DNA from: Pseudomonas sp. SCB32
GTDB lineage: Bacteria; Pseudomonadota; Gammaproteobacteria; Pseudomonadales; Pseudomonadaceae
NCBI RefSeq assembly: GCF_009189165.1
Contig: NZ_CP045118.1
Location: 186,001-250,000 of the forward strand
DNA length: 64,000 nt
Direction: 5' to 3'
Shown: in pieces, positions 1,883 through 46,735 of the stretch
Numbering within the stretch: position 1 is the first letter of the stretch
Layout: every line of letters starts with the position of its first letter
The notes under the pieces: model-generated
What the model was told of the DNA's origin: nothing
What the model saw: only the letters and a program-made list of their open reading frames with translations
The model's database searches: none
Made by a program: the position numbers and the translations under genes

Positions 1883-3822
1883 GTCGCGAAGTCGAGCCAC
1901 GCTGGAAACAAAAGTATCTCGATAACCTCGAGCAGCAGGAAAAGCTCGAACGGCGCTGGAACGCCCGCGTCGACCTGCTGCGCCGGGGTCTGGTGCGCAG
2001 CAGCCTGGCGGCCGAGGGCAGCGACAAGGCGGTGGACGCCTGCATGAAGGAGCTGCGCGAGGTTCTGCGCCGCGACGAAATGGACGCCGGCCTCGCTCGC
2101 CTGATTCCGCAGCTGGAACGCGCGGTGCTCGATTCCGAGCAGCGCCGCCAGCAACGCATCGAGCAGAATATCGCGGCGCTCTCCCAGCTCGCCCAGCAAC
2201 TGCTGGCGCTCGAGCTGCCGGGGGAGGTGCGAAAGCCGCTCAAGCATTTCGCCAGGGACATCGCTGCGCGGGCCAGCAACTCCCGCGAGCTGCCAGCTCT
2301 GCTCAGTGAGCTGAGCGGCCTGCAGCGCCAAGTGATCGAGCATTTCGGCGCCGCCGGCAATGAACAGCGTCCCGGCCTGCTGCAACGCCTGTTCGGCGGG
2401 CGTGAGGCGGCCAGCGATGCGCCGGAGCTGCCGCAGGTCGTGGCTGCCGCTGTGGTCGAGACGCCGCCCGCTGAGACGCTGGTGCTGGCCGATACGATGG
2501 CTGTCCAGGCCGAATCCCTGGCACCCGCACCCGCACCCGCACCCGCACCCGCACCCGCACCCGCACTAGAGCCAGAGCCAGAGCCCGTAGCGGTTGCCCC
2601 CACCCTCGAGCCGGCCGTCGAGACCGCCGACCCGGTGGCGCCCGAAGCGCCAGTCGCACCTGCTGGCGTGGCGCCGGGCCCGGCCCTGCTCGACAGCCTG
2701 CCGTTGCCCGCCGGCCTGTTCGGCGAGCCGGCTGAAACAGCCGACCCCTATGCCCTGCCGCCGCGCCCGGAGCCGGGCTACAGCGCGGTTGCGCCGCATA
2801 TCGAGGCCAGCCTGCTGCACCTGCTGGACGAAATGCGCCTGCCGATCACCCATCAGCCCCAGGCCGAGGCCCTGCGCTCGCGCATTCACGGCAGCCTGAA
2901 CTGGTACGAACTGGTGCCGGTGCTGGATGACCTGGCGGTGCTGGTGCTGTCGCTCAACGATAGCGGCCAGCGCGAGTTCGAAGGCTACCTGTACCAGCTC
3001 AACGAGCGCCTGGGCGCGTTCCTCGATGGTCTGCAGGTGGTGCACGACAGCCACGCGGGCTCCAGCTCCAGTGCCCGCGACCTCGACGATACCCTGCGCG
3101 AGCAGGTCAGCGGCCTGAAGGAAAGCGTGCTGGAAGCCACCGACCTGGAGGGCCTCAAGCGCCACGTCGAAAGTCGTCTGCAAGGGCTGGTCGGCACCAT
3201 GGACCAGTTCCGCGAGGAGCGCGAAGCCCGCGAGCGCGAGGTGGGCGAGCGCATCCAGTCGCTGATGACGCGGGTGGCGAGCATGGAGGAGGAGGCGCGG
3301 ACCTTCAAAGCCAATATCGAGGACCAGCGCCAGAAGGCCATGACCGATGCCCTGACCGGCCTGCCCAACCGCGCCGCGCTGAACGAGCGTCTGGAGCAGG
3401 AAGTGGCGCGCTGGGAGCGCTTCGGCGACGACCTCCTGCTGGCGGTCCTGGATGTGGACCACTTCAAGCGCATCAACGACGACTTCGGCCATCTGGCTGG
3501 CGACAAGGTGCTGAAGATCATCGCCTCGGAGCTTTCCAAGCGCCTGCGTAAGACCGACTTCATCGCCCGCTACGGCGGCGAGGAGTTCGTCGTGCTGTTG
3601 CCGGCCACGCCGCTGGAAGGCGGGCAGCAAGTGCTCGACGTGCTGCGCGGCGCGGTGGAAGCCTGCCCCTTCCACTTCAAGGGCGAACGCCTGGTGATCA
3701 CCTGCTCCGCAGGGCTCACCGCCTTCCGCTCAGGCGAGCTCAGCGACGCGGTCTTCGAGCGGGCCGACCAGGCGCTGTACCGCGCCAAGCGCGGCGGACG
3801 CAACCGCCTCGAAGTCGACTGA
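1879..3822 (+). CDS. dgcP: Diguanylate cyclase with C-terminal GGDEF domain (DgcP-like)
   Basis: The 647-aa cytoplasmic protein makes c-di-GMP. Residues 1-400 hold charged coiled-coil segments around a low-complexity Ala-Pro linker (about residues 215-232, followed by EPEPEP). A second helical region leads into a GGDEF domain at about 485-647. The active site is GGEEF at 566-570, and an RKTD inhibitory I-site lies exactly five residues upstream (557-560), so product inhibition is expected. The ATG at 1879 overlaps the previous stop. A frame opening at 1705 is only a read-through of the upstream gene in another frame. The layout and neighbours match P. aeruginosa PA5487 (DgcP), which I recall as acting at cell poles. 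Confidence 0.92.
2521..2566 (+). repeat. Tandem hexanucleotide repeat GCACCC (7 copies plus GCAC) in dgcP
   Basis: Seven uninterrupted GCACCC units encode (Ala-Pro)n in the linker of the diguanylate cyclase. The unit is a multiple of three, so slippage would change linker length without shifting the frame. Confidence 0.9.
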
Positions 3823-17581: not shown

Positions 17582-18049
17582 ATGACGGCTTCTCTGACTC
17601 TGCGTGAACTCGACGTCGACCAGGCACCCTGGCCGCTGTTGCTGCTGGCCGATCCCAGCCGCGAGCAGGTGCAGTGCTACCTGCGAGAGTCCTGCCTGCT
17701 GGCGCTTTTGGCAGGAGGACGCACGCTGGGGGTGGTGGTGATCACGCCCCGCTCCGAAGGCGCGGCGGAAATCACCAACCTCGCGGTGGATGAAGCCTGG
17801 CAAGGGCGCGGCCTCGGCCGTCGCCTGCTGGAGTCGGCCATCGCGCGGGCCAGGGTGGACGGGCTGCAGCGGCTGCTCATCGCCACCGGCAACTCCAGCC
17901 TCGCCCAGCTCGGGCTATACCAGCGGGCGGGGTTCCGCATCGTCGGGATCGAGCCGGACTACTTCGTCCGGCATTACCCCGAGCCGATCTTCGAGAACGG
18001 CATCCAGTGCCGCGACCAGATCCGCCTGGCGTTGGCGCTCAATCCCTAG
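17582..18049 (+). CDS. GNAT family N-acetyltransferase
   Basis: The product is 155 aa with the acetyl-CoA binding signature ITNLAVDEAWQGRGLGRRLL (motif A, Q/R-x-x-G-x-G/A) at mid-protein and LGLYQRAGFRIVGI near the C-terminus. The substrate (protein, amine or antibiotic) is not evident. The ATG at 17582 is preceded by GAGGTG (17567-17572); a GTG at 17570 is in frame. The stop overlaps the folE2 stop by 3 bases on the opposite strand. Confidence 0.8.
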   Translation: MTASLTLRELDVDQAPWPLLLLADPSREQVQCYLRESCLLALLAGGRTLGVVVITPRSEGAAEITNLAVDEAWQGRGLGRRLLESAIARARVDGLQRLLIATGNSSLAQLGLYQRAGFRIVGIEPDYFVRHYPEPIFENGIQCRDQIRLALALNP

Positions 18050-18933
18050 CCGCGCCGCCAGCGGCTGACCGCCACCGCATCATGGGCGTGCAGGCTTTCC
18101 GCGTGGACGACCCGCACGTCGAACCCGATTAATTCCTCGCGCTGCATCAAGGCCCGGTGCAGCCGGCGCGCGGCATCCTCGCAGAACATCAGGTTCTGCC
18201 CGTTGGCGAGGGCGAAGGCCTGCTCGTCGGCGCGCTTCACCGCCGTCTGCACGGCGGTGCCGAGGGCCGCTTCGGCGTGGTCGATCAATTCGTTCAATAG
18301 AAAACCAGTGGCCGCCGGATCGAGCCGCAGGCGAAGTCGCGCCTCGCTGCGCTGGCTGTGCGGCGCGGCAACTATGCCCTGCGTGCTGCCGAGCCAGTCG
18401 CGGACTTCATCGGCGTGCAGCGCCCGCCCGGCGAAGTCACAGTCGAAGCGCTCCTAGATCAACTGGCGGGCAAGGGCGGCGGAGCAGGGGCAGGTGGAGG
18501 AGTAGGGCAGCGACAGGCACAGCTCCAGTTGCAGCAGGCCAGCTTCCCTGTGGGCGTGGATTTCGCAGGGATAGCGCTTCCAGCCGCTCAACGGGCTGAC
18601 CAGCGCCGGACGGCGCAGCATCAATTCGAAGCGCAGGACCAGGCTGGCCTGGTGGGAAAGCTGCGCATGGCTTTCAAGAAATTGCCCAAGGGTATCGCGC
18701 AGCAGGGCGGGCGAGAGCTCTGCATCGGCCAGCGCTTCCAGCGCCAGGTACAGGCGCGACATGTGGATGCCGCGCGCCCCGGCGTCATCGAGGCTGACGC
18801 CGGCGTCGGCGAAGGCGGCAACCCGCTCACCGGTGATCCTCAGTGGCACGGCAATGCCCTGCATGCCAACCCAGTCGAGGGGAATTGGCAGGTGGGTGGA
18901 CTGGCGGGCGATGTCGGGAAGGGCGGCGGTCAT
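18046..18933 (-). pseudogene. folE2: GTP cyclohydrolase FolE2 (zinc-independent type), interrupted by in-frame amber codon
   Basis: The frame encodes a full-length, roughly 295-codon FolE2, which makes dihydroneopterin triphosphate for folate when zinc is scarce. Recognisable parts are PIPLDWVGMQGI, GIHMSRLY, SHQASLVLRFELMLRRPA, the catalytic CPCS (C148-P-C150), then NGQNLMFCEDAARRL and HAHDAVAVSRW at the end. Codon 160 is TAG (complement of 18454-18456) between LARQLI and ERFDCDF, in the same frame, where homologues usually have Gln. A single C-to-T change (CAG to TAG) explains it. The product would lose 45% of the chain, including the conserved Glu region. A Zur box lies 24 bp upstream of the ATG. 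A sequencing error is possible. Confidence 0.85.
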
Positions 18934-18956: not shown

Positions 18957-18969
18957 GTTATAATATAAC
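18957..18969 (-). promoter_or_regulatory. Zur box controlling folE2
   Basis: The sequence GTTATAATATAAC is a perfect palindrome matching the gammaproteobacterial Zur operator core. It lies 24 bp before the folE2 ATG and is identical to the second box at 19505-19517. Zinc-loaded Zur would repress here. Confidence 0.88.
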
Positions 18970-19017: not shown

Positions 19018-19419
19018 TCAGCGCGCCTGCTGCTTGCAGCCGCTCACTCGCCCGCAGGTCAGGCGGGTGCTGTCGCCGGAGGAGCTGCTGAAGTGGCTGA
19101 TGTTGGTCCAGCCGATGCCGCGACTGGTGCCGACCCACACTTGCCCGTCGCTGGCGACGCCGCTGAAAAAGGTCAGGCTGCCAAAGCGCGTGCCGGTTTG
19201 CGCCCATTGCCTGCCGCTGGCGGCATCGAAGCCGCGCAGGTAGGTGTCGTGGCCCTGGGTGGCGACGCTGTAGAGGTTGCCCGCGTCGTCCATGCAGGCC
19301 ATGACCTGCGCCGACCAGGCGCAGCGCGCCGGCTCCTCGCCGGGGAAGGGCAGTGGCGCCTGGCCGCTGGCGCAGGCGAGTGGGGCGAACAGGCAGAGCG
19401 GCAGGGCGCGGCGCAGCAT
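19018..19419 (-). CDS. Small secreted hypothetical protein of the zinc-starvation cluster
   Basis: The product is 133 aa with a clear signal peptide (MLRRALPLCLFAPLACASG). The mature part reads like fragments of a beta-propeller (MDDAGNLYSVATQGHDTYLRGF, FSGVASDGQVWVGTSRGIGW) and has four Cys residues. No family is recognised. It is divergent from dksA2, and the shared intergenic holds the second Zur box about 86 bp upstream of its start, so zinc control of both directions is plausible. Its stop lies about 85 bp before the folE2 start in the same direction. Confidence 0.65.
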   Translation of the reverse strand: MLRRALPLCLFAPLACASGQAPLPFPGEEPARCAWSAQVMACMDDAGNLYSVATQGHDTYLRGFDAASGRQWAQTGTRFGSLTFFSGVASDGQVWVGTSRGIGWTNISHFSSSSGDSTRLTCGRVSGCKQQAR

Positions 19420-19504
19420 CGGGCATCCGGAATTCAGCTGGGGCGGGGCATTGGTATCGCACGTCGTCGGTCGGTTGTCGATTCTCGATTGTAGAACATG
19501 AATT

Positions 19505-19517
19505 GTTATAATATAAC
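19505..19517 (+). promoter_or_regulatory. Zur box between dksA2 and the divergent secreted-protein gene
   Basis: A second, identical GTTATAATATAAC palindrome, 31 bp upstream of the dksA2 ATG. The downstream genes dksA2, the G3E GTPase and the DUF1826 gene are tightly packed and probably form one Zur-repressed operon. Confidence 0.88.
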
Positions 19518-19548: not shown

Positions 19549-19953
19549 ATGACCGAACAGGAACTGCTCGCCCAGCCCGGCGAGGCCTACATGAGCGAGG
19601 CGCAACAGGGTTACTTCCGCAACCTCCTGCTGAACCAGCGTGGAGAGTTGCAGGTGCGCATCGACGAACAATTCCACGCCCTGCAGGACGGCGAGCGCCC
19701 CAGCGACGACGCCGATATCGCCAGCCGCGAGGAAGCGCGCCAATGGCAACTGCGCGTGCTTGAGCGCGAGAAGAAGCTGCTGGACAAGATCGACCAGGCC
19801 CTGGCGCGCCTGGTGCGGGGCGATTACGGCTGGTGCGCGGAAACCGGTGAACCGATCGGCCTGCGCCGCCTGCTGCTGCGCCCCACCGCCTCGTTGTGCA
19901 TCGAGGCCAAGGAGCGCCAGGAACGGCGCGAACTGCATGTCCGTGAAGCCTGA
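19549..19953 (+). CDS. dksA2: Zinc-independent DksA paralogue (DksA2), RNA polymerase-binding transcription factor
   Basis: The 134-aa protein acts with ppGpp in the RNA polymerase secondary channel. The coiled-coil tip motif D53-x2-D56-x-A58 is present. The zinc finger is degenerate: C96-x2-T99 and C117-x2-A120 replace the four cysteines of DksA, so structural zinc is not needed. This is the known substitute made under zinc limitation. The true start is the ATG at 19549 (CCCGGAGACGG upstream). A longer open frame begins inside the Zur box. It is first gene of the Zur operon. Confidence 0.93.
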
Positions 19954-22409: not shown

Positions 22410-23372
22410 ATGTTGAAGCAGATCCCGACTTATCTCATCGCCGGCCCTCTCGGGGCGGGCAAGACCAGCCTGCTGCGCGACCTGCTGGGCCAGCGCCCAG
22501 CGGACGAGCGCTGGGCTGTACTGGTCAACGAATTCGGCCAGGTTGGCCTGGACGCCGCGCTGCTCAGCCGCGACGAGGATGGCGTCGCCCTCGGCGAGGT
22601 CGCCGGCGGCTGCCTGTGCTGCGTGAATGGCGCGCCCTTCCAGGTCGGGCTGGGGCGGCTGTTGCGCAAGGCCAGGCCGCAGCGACTGTTCATCGAGCCC
22701 TCCGGCCTCGGCCATCCGTCGCAGCTGCTGGCGCAACTGCGTGCCGCGCCCTGGCAGGGCGTGCTGGCGGTGCAGCCGCTGGTCATGGTACTGGATGCCG
22801 CGGCGCTGGCGGCCGGGCAGCCGCTGCCCGAGGCCCAGCAGAATGCCCTGGCGCAGGCCGGGCTGTTGCTGCTGAACAAGAGCGAGGACCTCGATGACGC
22901 GGCCCGTGCCGCGCTATTGGCCGGCTTGCCGGCGCTGCCGACACGCTGGACCACCCAGGGCCATCTGGCGCTCCCCGAATTGCCCACCGTGCCCCTGACC
23001 GAGCCCGCGGCCGAATTACCCGTGCTGCCCAGGGGCGTGGAAGGTGCTGTGCTGCTGCACCGCGACCAGCCCTTGCGGCAGGAGCGCATCGAAGACGGTC
23101 GGCAGGCGATTGGCTGGCGCTTCCATCCGGACTGGCGTTTCCGTATCGGTGAGCTGGATGCGTGGCTGGCCACGCTGCCCGGCTTGCTGCGGGCCAAGGC
23201 GGTCCTGCATGGCGAGGCCGGGTGGATGGCGTGCAACCGCACCGATCGGCCAGTGGCCTGGACGGACAGTGCGTGGCGTCGCGATAGTCGGATCGAGTTG
23301 ATCCTGGCCACGGAAGTCGACGCGCAACCGCTTCAGAATGCGCTTCTGCGCTGTGCCATAGCGCCGGTCTGA
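22410..23372 (+). CDS. Second G3E-family GTPase (CobW-like)
   Basis: The 320-aa protein has Walker A G12PLGAGKT19, C68-L-C70-C71 and IEPSGLGHP, as in COG0523 proteins. The guanine motif reads LNKSEDL. It is shorter than the first paralogue and its C-terminal CobW domain is compact. The position just before tonB matches a Pseudomonas gene I recall as PA5532. The metal served is unknown. No Zur box was found directly upstream, so regulation may differ from the first paralogue. Confidence 0.85.
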   Translation: MLKQIPTYLIAGPLGAGKTSLLRDLLGQRPADERWAVLVNEFGQVGLDAALLSRDEDGVALGEVAGGCLCCVNGAPFQVGLGRLLRKARPQRLFIEPSGLGHPSQLLAQLRAAPWQGVLAVQPLVMVLDAAALAAGQPLPEAQQNALAQAGLLLLNKSEDLDDAARAALLAGLPALPTRWTTQGHLALPELPTVPLTEPAAELPVLPRGVEGAVLLHRDQPLRQERIEDGRQAIGWRFHPDWRFRIGELDAWLATLPGLLRAKAVLHGEAGWMACNRTDRPVAWTDSAWRRDSRIELILATEVDAQPLQNALLRCAIAPV

Positions 23373-45949: not shown

Positions 45950-46735
45950 ATGAGTTCGGCACTTTGGGTCAGCAAGACCGGCCTTGCGGCACAGGACACC
46001 GCGATGTCCACCGTGGCCAACAACCTGGCCAACGTGAATACCGTCGGCTTCAAGAGCGACCGCGCGGTCTTCGAGGACCTGTTCTACCAGGTCGAGCTGC
46101 AACCGGGCGCCCAGGCTGACCAGGTCAACACCGTACCCTCCGGCATCCAGCTGGGCAGCGGCGTGCGCGTGGTGGGCACGCAGAAGGTGTTCACCGAAGG
46201 CAGCATGCAGACCACCGGCCAGCCGATGGACCTGGCGATCATCGGCAGCGGCTTCTTCCAGGTCGAAGCGCCCAACGGCGACACCTACTACACCGAGAAC
46301 GGCCAGCTGCAGCTCAACAACGAGGGCATGGTGGTCAATGCCCAGGGCCTGCCGCTGAAGCCGAGCATCGAAGTACCGTCCGGTGCCAGCCGCTTCACCG
46401 TCGGCAGCGACGGCATCGTCACCGCCATCCTGCCGGGCGAGACCCTGCCCACCGAGCTGGGCCAGATCACCCTGGTCCACTTCACCAACCCGGCCGGCCT
46501 GGAGGCCTTGGGTGGCAACCTCTACAAGGAGACCGCCGCCAGCGGCGAGCCGCAGGAAGGCACGCCGGGCGAGGAGGGCCTGGGCACGATCAAGCAGGGC
46601 GTGCTCGAAGGCTCCAACGTGCAGGTGGTGGAGGCCATGGTGAACATGATCGCCATCCAGCGCGCCTACGAGGCCAACGCCAAGGTGCTCGACGCCGCGT
46701 CGGGCATGCAGCAGTTCCTCAACCAGACGGTCTGA
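45950..46735 (+). CDS. flgG: Flagellar distal rod protein FlgG (LfgG)
   Basis: The 261-aa product has MSSALWVSKTGLAAQDTAMSTVANNLANVNTVGFKSDRAVF and the FlgG signature GSGVRVVGTQKVFTEGSMQTTGQPMDLAI. The C-terminal LEGSNVQVVEAMVNMIAIQRAYEANAKVL is complete. GGAGCGAGAG precedes the ATG. Fewer than 3 bp separate it from flgH. Confidence 0.95.
   Translation: MSSALWVSKTGLAAQDTAMSTVANNLANVNTVGFKSDRAVFEDLFYQVELQPGAQADQVNTVPSGIQLGSGVRVVGTQKVFTEGSMQTTGQPMDLAIIGSGFFQVEAPNGDTYYTENGQLQLNNEGMVVNAQGLPLKPSIEVPSGASRFTVGSDGIVTAILPGETLPTELGQITLVHFTNPAGLEALGGNLYKETAASGEPQEGTPGEEGLGTIKQGVLEGSNVQVVEAMVNMIAIQRAYEANAKVLDAASGMQQFLNQTV

Follow-up and report, generated by a model that had tools for sequence, protein, structure and literature searches.

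An amber codon in a FolE2 frame

The folE2 gene described here raises the question of whether a backup enzyme for folate synthesis has recently died, whether its internal stop codon is passed over during translation, or whether a single wrong base in the assembly hides an intact gene. The gene lies on the complement of positions 18046 to 18933 of the window, which is the whole stretch of 64,000 nucleotides of DNA that was analyzed. Upon translation, this region is an open frame apart from an internal TAG at codon 160. The amber codon (18454 to 18456, minus strand), which is a Gln codon in relatives, sits between …LARQLI and ERFDCDF…, without a frameshift. The 5′ part of the gene, comprising codons 1 to 159 (18457 to 18933, minus strand), is the sole part that is translated unless readthrough occurs, and it ends soon after the conserved CPCS motif. 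The 3′ part, comprising codons 161 to 295 (18049 to 18453, minus strand), remains in frame, encodes the enzyme's second half, and is followed by the natural terminator, which is also TAG (18046 to 18048, minus strand). The claim of the sequence-only reading that a FolE2 frame is broken solely by TAG at codon 160 is thus confirmed by the translation, by the matching flanks, and by the lack of a frameshift.

When an X is placed at the stop, the protein matches the NCBIfam FolE2 model NF010200.1 with 312 bits, which passes the cut-off of 215. Residues 1 to 159 alone reach 156 bits and the part after the stop alone reaches 146 bits, both of which are below this cut-off. The translated product therefore does not pass as FolE2 by the curated cut-off, and the gene qualifies only when the stop is passed over. 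Against Pfam PF02649, residues 1 to 159 give 112 bits over profile positions 1 to 157, and residues 161 to 295 give 107 bits over profile positions 160 to 260. The gene shares this family match on both sides of the stop with known FolE2 (GTP cyclohydrolase IB) genes such as Pseudomonas aeruginosa PA5539 and Bacillus subtilis folEB, but differs from them in being interrupted by an amber codon and in carrying Ala in place of Thr190. Only one PF02649 match is present in the genome, and a search of the plasmid collection for an intact folE2 copy gave no match at high DNA identity.

We take the metal-site and catalytic residues of FolE2 to be the Cys of CPCS, the His of PHSQRS or HNQRS, the Glu of KRxDE, and the His of ESxHxH. 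Alignment to 8g6c and 3d2o shows that, of these motifs, CPCS alone precedes the stop, and that the three others follow it. The predicted 159-residue product would lose the second-half motifs PHSQRS, KRADE, and ESLHAHD, and would not unite in one chain the residues that characterize FolE2.

The amber codon lies at the junction between the two profile halves, close to where a stretch of about 24 extra residues begins. Profile position 159 of NF010200.1 is reached at residue 158, and profile position 161 begins at residue 183. The residues between the halves, 159 to 182 (window 18388 to 18459, minus strand), are missing from the NF010200.1 profile.

Codons 160 and 190 among relatives

The codon aligned with codon 160 is CAG, within an open frame, in all 24 other genomes of the genus, a result that agrees with the earlier proposal of a single CAG-to-TAG change. 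In the same column, all 80 named loci compared (the top 80 of 581) and all 120 listed proteins (the top 120 of the 8000 candidates scored, namely those sharing most words) have Gln. These two sets have organisms in common and, with the window included, make up 201 rows, one of which is an exact duplicate. Internal stops are absent from the best 150 of 271 folE2 matches, which come from 270 genomes of the family; the matches beyond these 150 include weaker ones, among them that of the genome studied here. Among the best 120 matches, a protein of 159 residues appears as one entry, from this genome only, and the nearest intact protein, which is 90% identical, derives from a 26,380-base jgi contig. 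Two protein searches, considered for their best 120 proteins each, turned up no other strain of the species, and thus the stop base has been seen once. The gene carries one mark of a nonsense pseudogene, a premature stop that removes essential parts and is absent from the orthologues examined.

A further difference is found at codon 190 (18364 to 18366, minus strand), where each of the 24 genus genomes has Thr, as do all 200 of the other sequences in the alignment (199 of them distinct), and where the folE2 gene of the window has Ala. This codon is two residues ahead of the His of PHSQRS, which aligns with the HNQRS His of solved FolE2. Among 200 distinct sequences, only the folE2 of the window has two sole deviations from otherwise invariant columns, one of which is the stop itself. 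Because a single deviation of this kind is also seen in 16 of the 199 remaining distinct sequences, Thr190Ala, taken alone, is weak evidence for a real gene in decay.

Selection on the two parts of the gene was assessed by fitting Nei-Gojobori distances on a ten-sequence tree, composed of the folE2 described here and nine relatives chosen from 25. The terminal branch leading to this folE2 has a dN/dS of 0.169 overall (bootstrap 0.104–0.259), with 0.170 upstream of the stop (bootstrap 0.079–0.315) and 0.165 downstream of it (bootstrap 0.082–0.296). For the nine relatives, the overall values span 0.128 to 0.231, those downstream of the stop span 0.106 to 0.265, and a fit on all 25 sequences gives 0.175 for the folE2 branch. 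Because the branch lies within the range of its relatives, the downstream part appears to have been under constraint for nearly all of the branch. That both parts still look constrained suggests that the stop, if real, is young. An unrelaxed dN/dS is expected equally from a recent mutation, a base error, or functional readthrough.

In its single stop, intact promoter region, constrained sequence, and functional counterpart elsewhere in the genome, folE2 resembles recent nonsense pseudogenes of conditional backup genes, and no difference from these was found. No paper whose title concerns a FolE2 pseudogene was found in the literature.

The Zur box, its neighbors, and zinc-type folE

A Zur-box-like palindrome, GTTATATTATAAC (18957 to 18969, minus strand), is located upstream of folE2, 23 bases ahead of its ATG. 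It matches 12 of 12 defined positions of the consensus that we assume for such sites, and 11 or 12 of the 12 positions are matched in all 24 relatives. The Zur box is thus intact, as had been stated, and this predicted site at the promoter would place folE2 in the Zur regulon.

A second palindrome, identical to the first (19505 to 19517, plus strand), precedes a dksA-like gene that is the divergent neighbor of folE2 and forms an open frame at 19549 to 19953 (plus strand, start chosen by eye). The ORF spanning 19498 to 19950 matches TIGR02420.1 with 129.9 bits, above the cut-off of 115.5. Because the palindrome overlaps the 5′ end of an ORF that starts at 19498, the true start of the dksA-like gene is probably the ATG at 19549. 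Its place in the cluster suggests that this gene is dksA2. The same cluster includes a CobW/COG0523-like GTPase in an open frame (22410 to 23372, plus strand), which matches the TIGR02475 profile with 84.8 bits and the ZigA profile with 43.7 bits, both below cut-off, and which we presume to be a COG0523 protein. An ORF of 133 residues (19018 to 19419, minus strand) lies between the dksA-like gene and folE2. Its start resembles a signal peptide by eye, and it has no NCBIfam or Pfam match at an E value of 0.001.

Zinc-sparing clusters of Pseudomonas with dksA2, folE2, and COG0523 GTPases are described in PMC8531726, PMC10393844, and PMC2770081. The features that the present locus has in common with the clusters so described are the Zur-box palindrome and the dksA-like and CobW-like GTPase neighbors. 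In this literature, PA5539 is grouped with a carbonic-anhydrase-like gene and pyrC2, whereas the 3′ neighbor of folE2 here is a convergent acetyltransferase-like ORF, which is below the cut-offs of the models that it matched.

The prediction that folate synthesis would fall back on zinc-type FolE presupposes that this enzyme is still encoded, and two intact zinc-type folE copies are indeed present in the genome. Two copies are also present in 22 of the 24 other genus genomes, with three copies in one of the remaining genomes and a single copy in the other. No Zur-box-like site (at least 9 of 12 positions) occurs within 1.5 kb of either zinc-type copy. In B. subtilis, FolE2 is described as letting folate synthesis continue under severe zinc depletion. 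In a draw of 398 family genomes that contained the present one, 270 have a folE2 match and the remaining 128, or about a third, have none, indicating that life without folE2 is common in the family.

Explanations for the stop and their consequences

We consider it likely that a recent nonsense mutation inactivated folE2 in this strain or species. An error of one base in the assembly, with folE2 intact in the living strain, would be consistent with a stop seen in one assembly only and with the normal-looking constraint on both parts of the gene, but we judge it to be unlikely. In a finished genome, genuine nonsense alleles should outnumber substitution errors that create stops, and the assembly is one contig of 6,311,241 bases with a completeness of 100. 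Furthermore, we conducted a census of reading-frame integrity over 250 kb against the sister genome G022, wherein 155 ORFs from two stretches (125 and 30) had a match, a third-position GC filter was applied, and stops 15 or fewer residues from the end of an aligned stretch were not counted. Without this filter the census was dominated by antisense ORFs and by starts called too far upstream (9 and 5 stops flagged in this genome). Eight internal stops were flagged among the 155 ORFs. Only that of folE2 lies past aligned residue 76, and in no other case is third-position GC clearly the highest both before and after the stop. The remaining seven are consistent with starts called too far upstream.

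The same census yielded two frameshift candidates, one of which (genome ~46,150 to 46,570) resembles a spurious ORF. When the sister genome G015 was used for comparison (26 ORFs), the stop in folE2 and three stops in the first 31 residues of ORFs were flagged, along with two frameshift candidates. With two such candidates for each sister, the check on assembly quality is imperfect. The reverse census flagged 4 stops in 155 ORFs of G022 and 3 in 32 of G015, and these similar counts indicate a similar background of flagged stops in the sisters. An ORF of the window at ~2985 to 3563 (minus strand) shows stops in both sisters, and thus the filter passes some spurious ORFs.

The site of codon 160 has a CCAGG context in 15 of the 24 relatives, and a systematic C-to-T miscall at CCWGG would also be a form of base error. 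At ~2,900 CCWGG sites in each direction, C-to-T differences number 19 on this side versus 22 the other way, and at control CCWGH sites they number 49 versus 46, over 191,564 bases aligned with a sister. This lack of asymmetry gives no sign of a miscall linked to methylation or of a hot spot for deamination, and both were set aside for CCWGG. A cytosine-5 DNA methyltransferase is encoded elsewhere in the genome (positions 1432 to 2655 of locus L138, genome ~5,187,500), with 149.8 bits against TIGR00675 (cut-off 100.65).

The amber codon might instead be read through, either by a suppressor tRNA or by low-level misreading by tRNA-Gln with a UUG anticodon, such that some full-length FolE2 is made. 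The constraint on the downstream part of folE2 would suit this explanation, as would the two tRNA-Gln genes of the genome, both with a ttg anticodon, given that Gln is the fitting residue. Genes that undergo readthrough or amber recoding have an in-frame TAG and conserved downstream sequence in common with folE2. Unlike such genes, however, folE2 carries a stop that is present in none of the relatives examined, which reveals no conserved recoding site, and the recency of the stop explains the constraint. ARAGORN detected no CTA (amber-reading) anticodon in the loci covering all 67 tRNA matches of the genome, a result that lends no support to a suppressor tRNA. Thus, neither an amber-reading tRNA nor a stop conserved among relatives, either of which would mark readthrough, was found. 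Of the 197 filtered ORFs in a 250-kb sample, 22 end in TAG, as does folE2 itself. Recoding of TAG throughout the genome is rejected on these grounds, and general suppression should be costly. We therefore regard readthrough as very unlikely. Among the options that the sequence-only reading had placed side by side, recent death is the best supported, and neither a suppressor tRNA nor a dedicated readthrough signal is supported.

It is highly improbable, in our view, that the stop persists as a tuning device and does not amount to a loss. In that case, tRNA-Gln(UUG) would misread UAG, and the little FolE2 thus made, increased by strong Zur derepression, would suffice under zinc starvation. A split enzyme, in which two polypeptides, one per half, now assemble, is barely credible. 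The stop does fall where the two profile halves meet, near the ~24 residues that the profile lacks, and CTG, a rare start codon, is present at codon 172, ahead of the second half. However, the first ATG, GTG, or TTG past the stop is the TTG at codon 213, which is well within the second half and too late to yield all of it, and the split-gene candidate was rejected.

Under the favored explanation of a recent nonsense mutation, the lost gene would be one for a Zur-controlled, zinc-independent GTP cyclohydrolase (GCYH-IB). Because the promoter region and the Zur box have been kept, folE2 would still be transcribed under zinc starvation, and translation would stop at residue 159. The resulting product would be missing the entire second half of the enzyme, which would leave folate synthesis to the two zinc-type FolE copies. 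We infer a genuine stop base, an inactive 159-residue fragment, and a cell that depends more on zinc for its folate.

Such an event is of an ordinary kind, affecting a backup gene that is missing from many genomes in the family, and it offers no pointer to a new mechanism. If the stop is real, the strain is a folE2-loss mutant that arose in nature and has retained both the Zur box and the neighbors of the zinc-sparing cluster, and its comparison with intact relatives could reveal the weight that the zinc-independent folate enzyme carries in the wild. The stop in folE2 may show a young step toward the absence of this gene that is common in the family.
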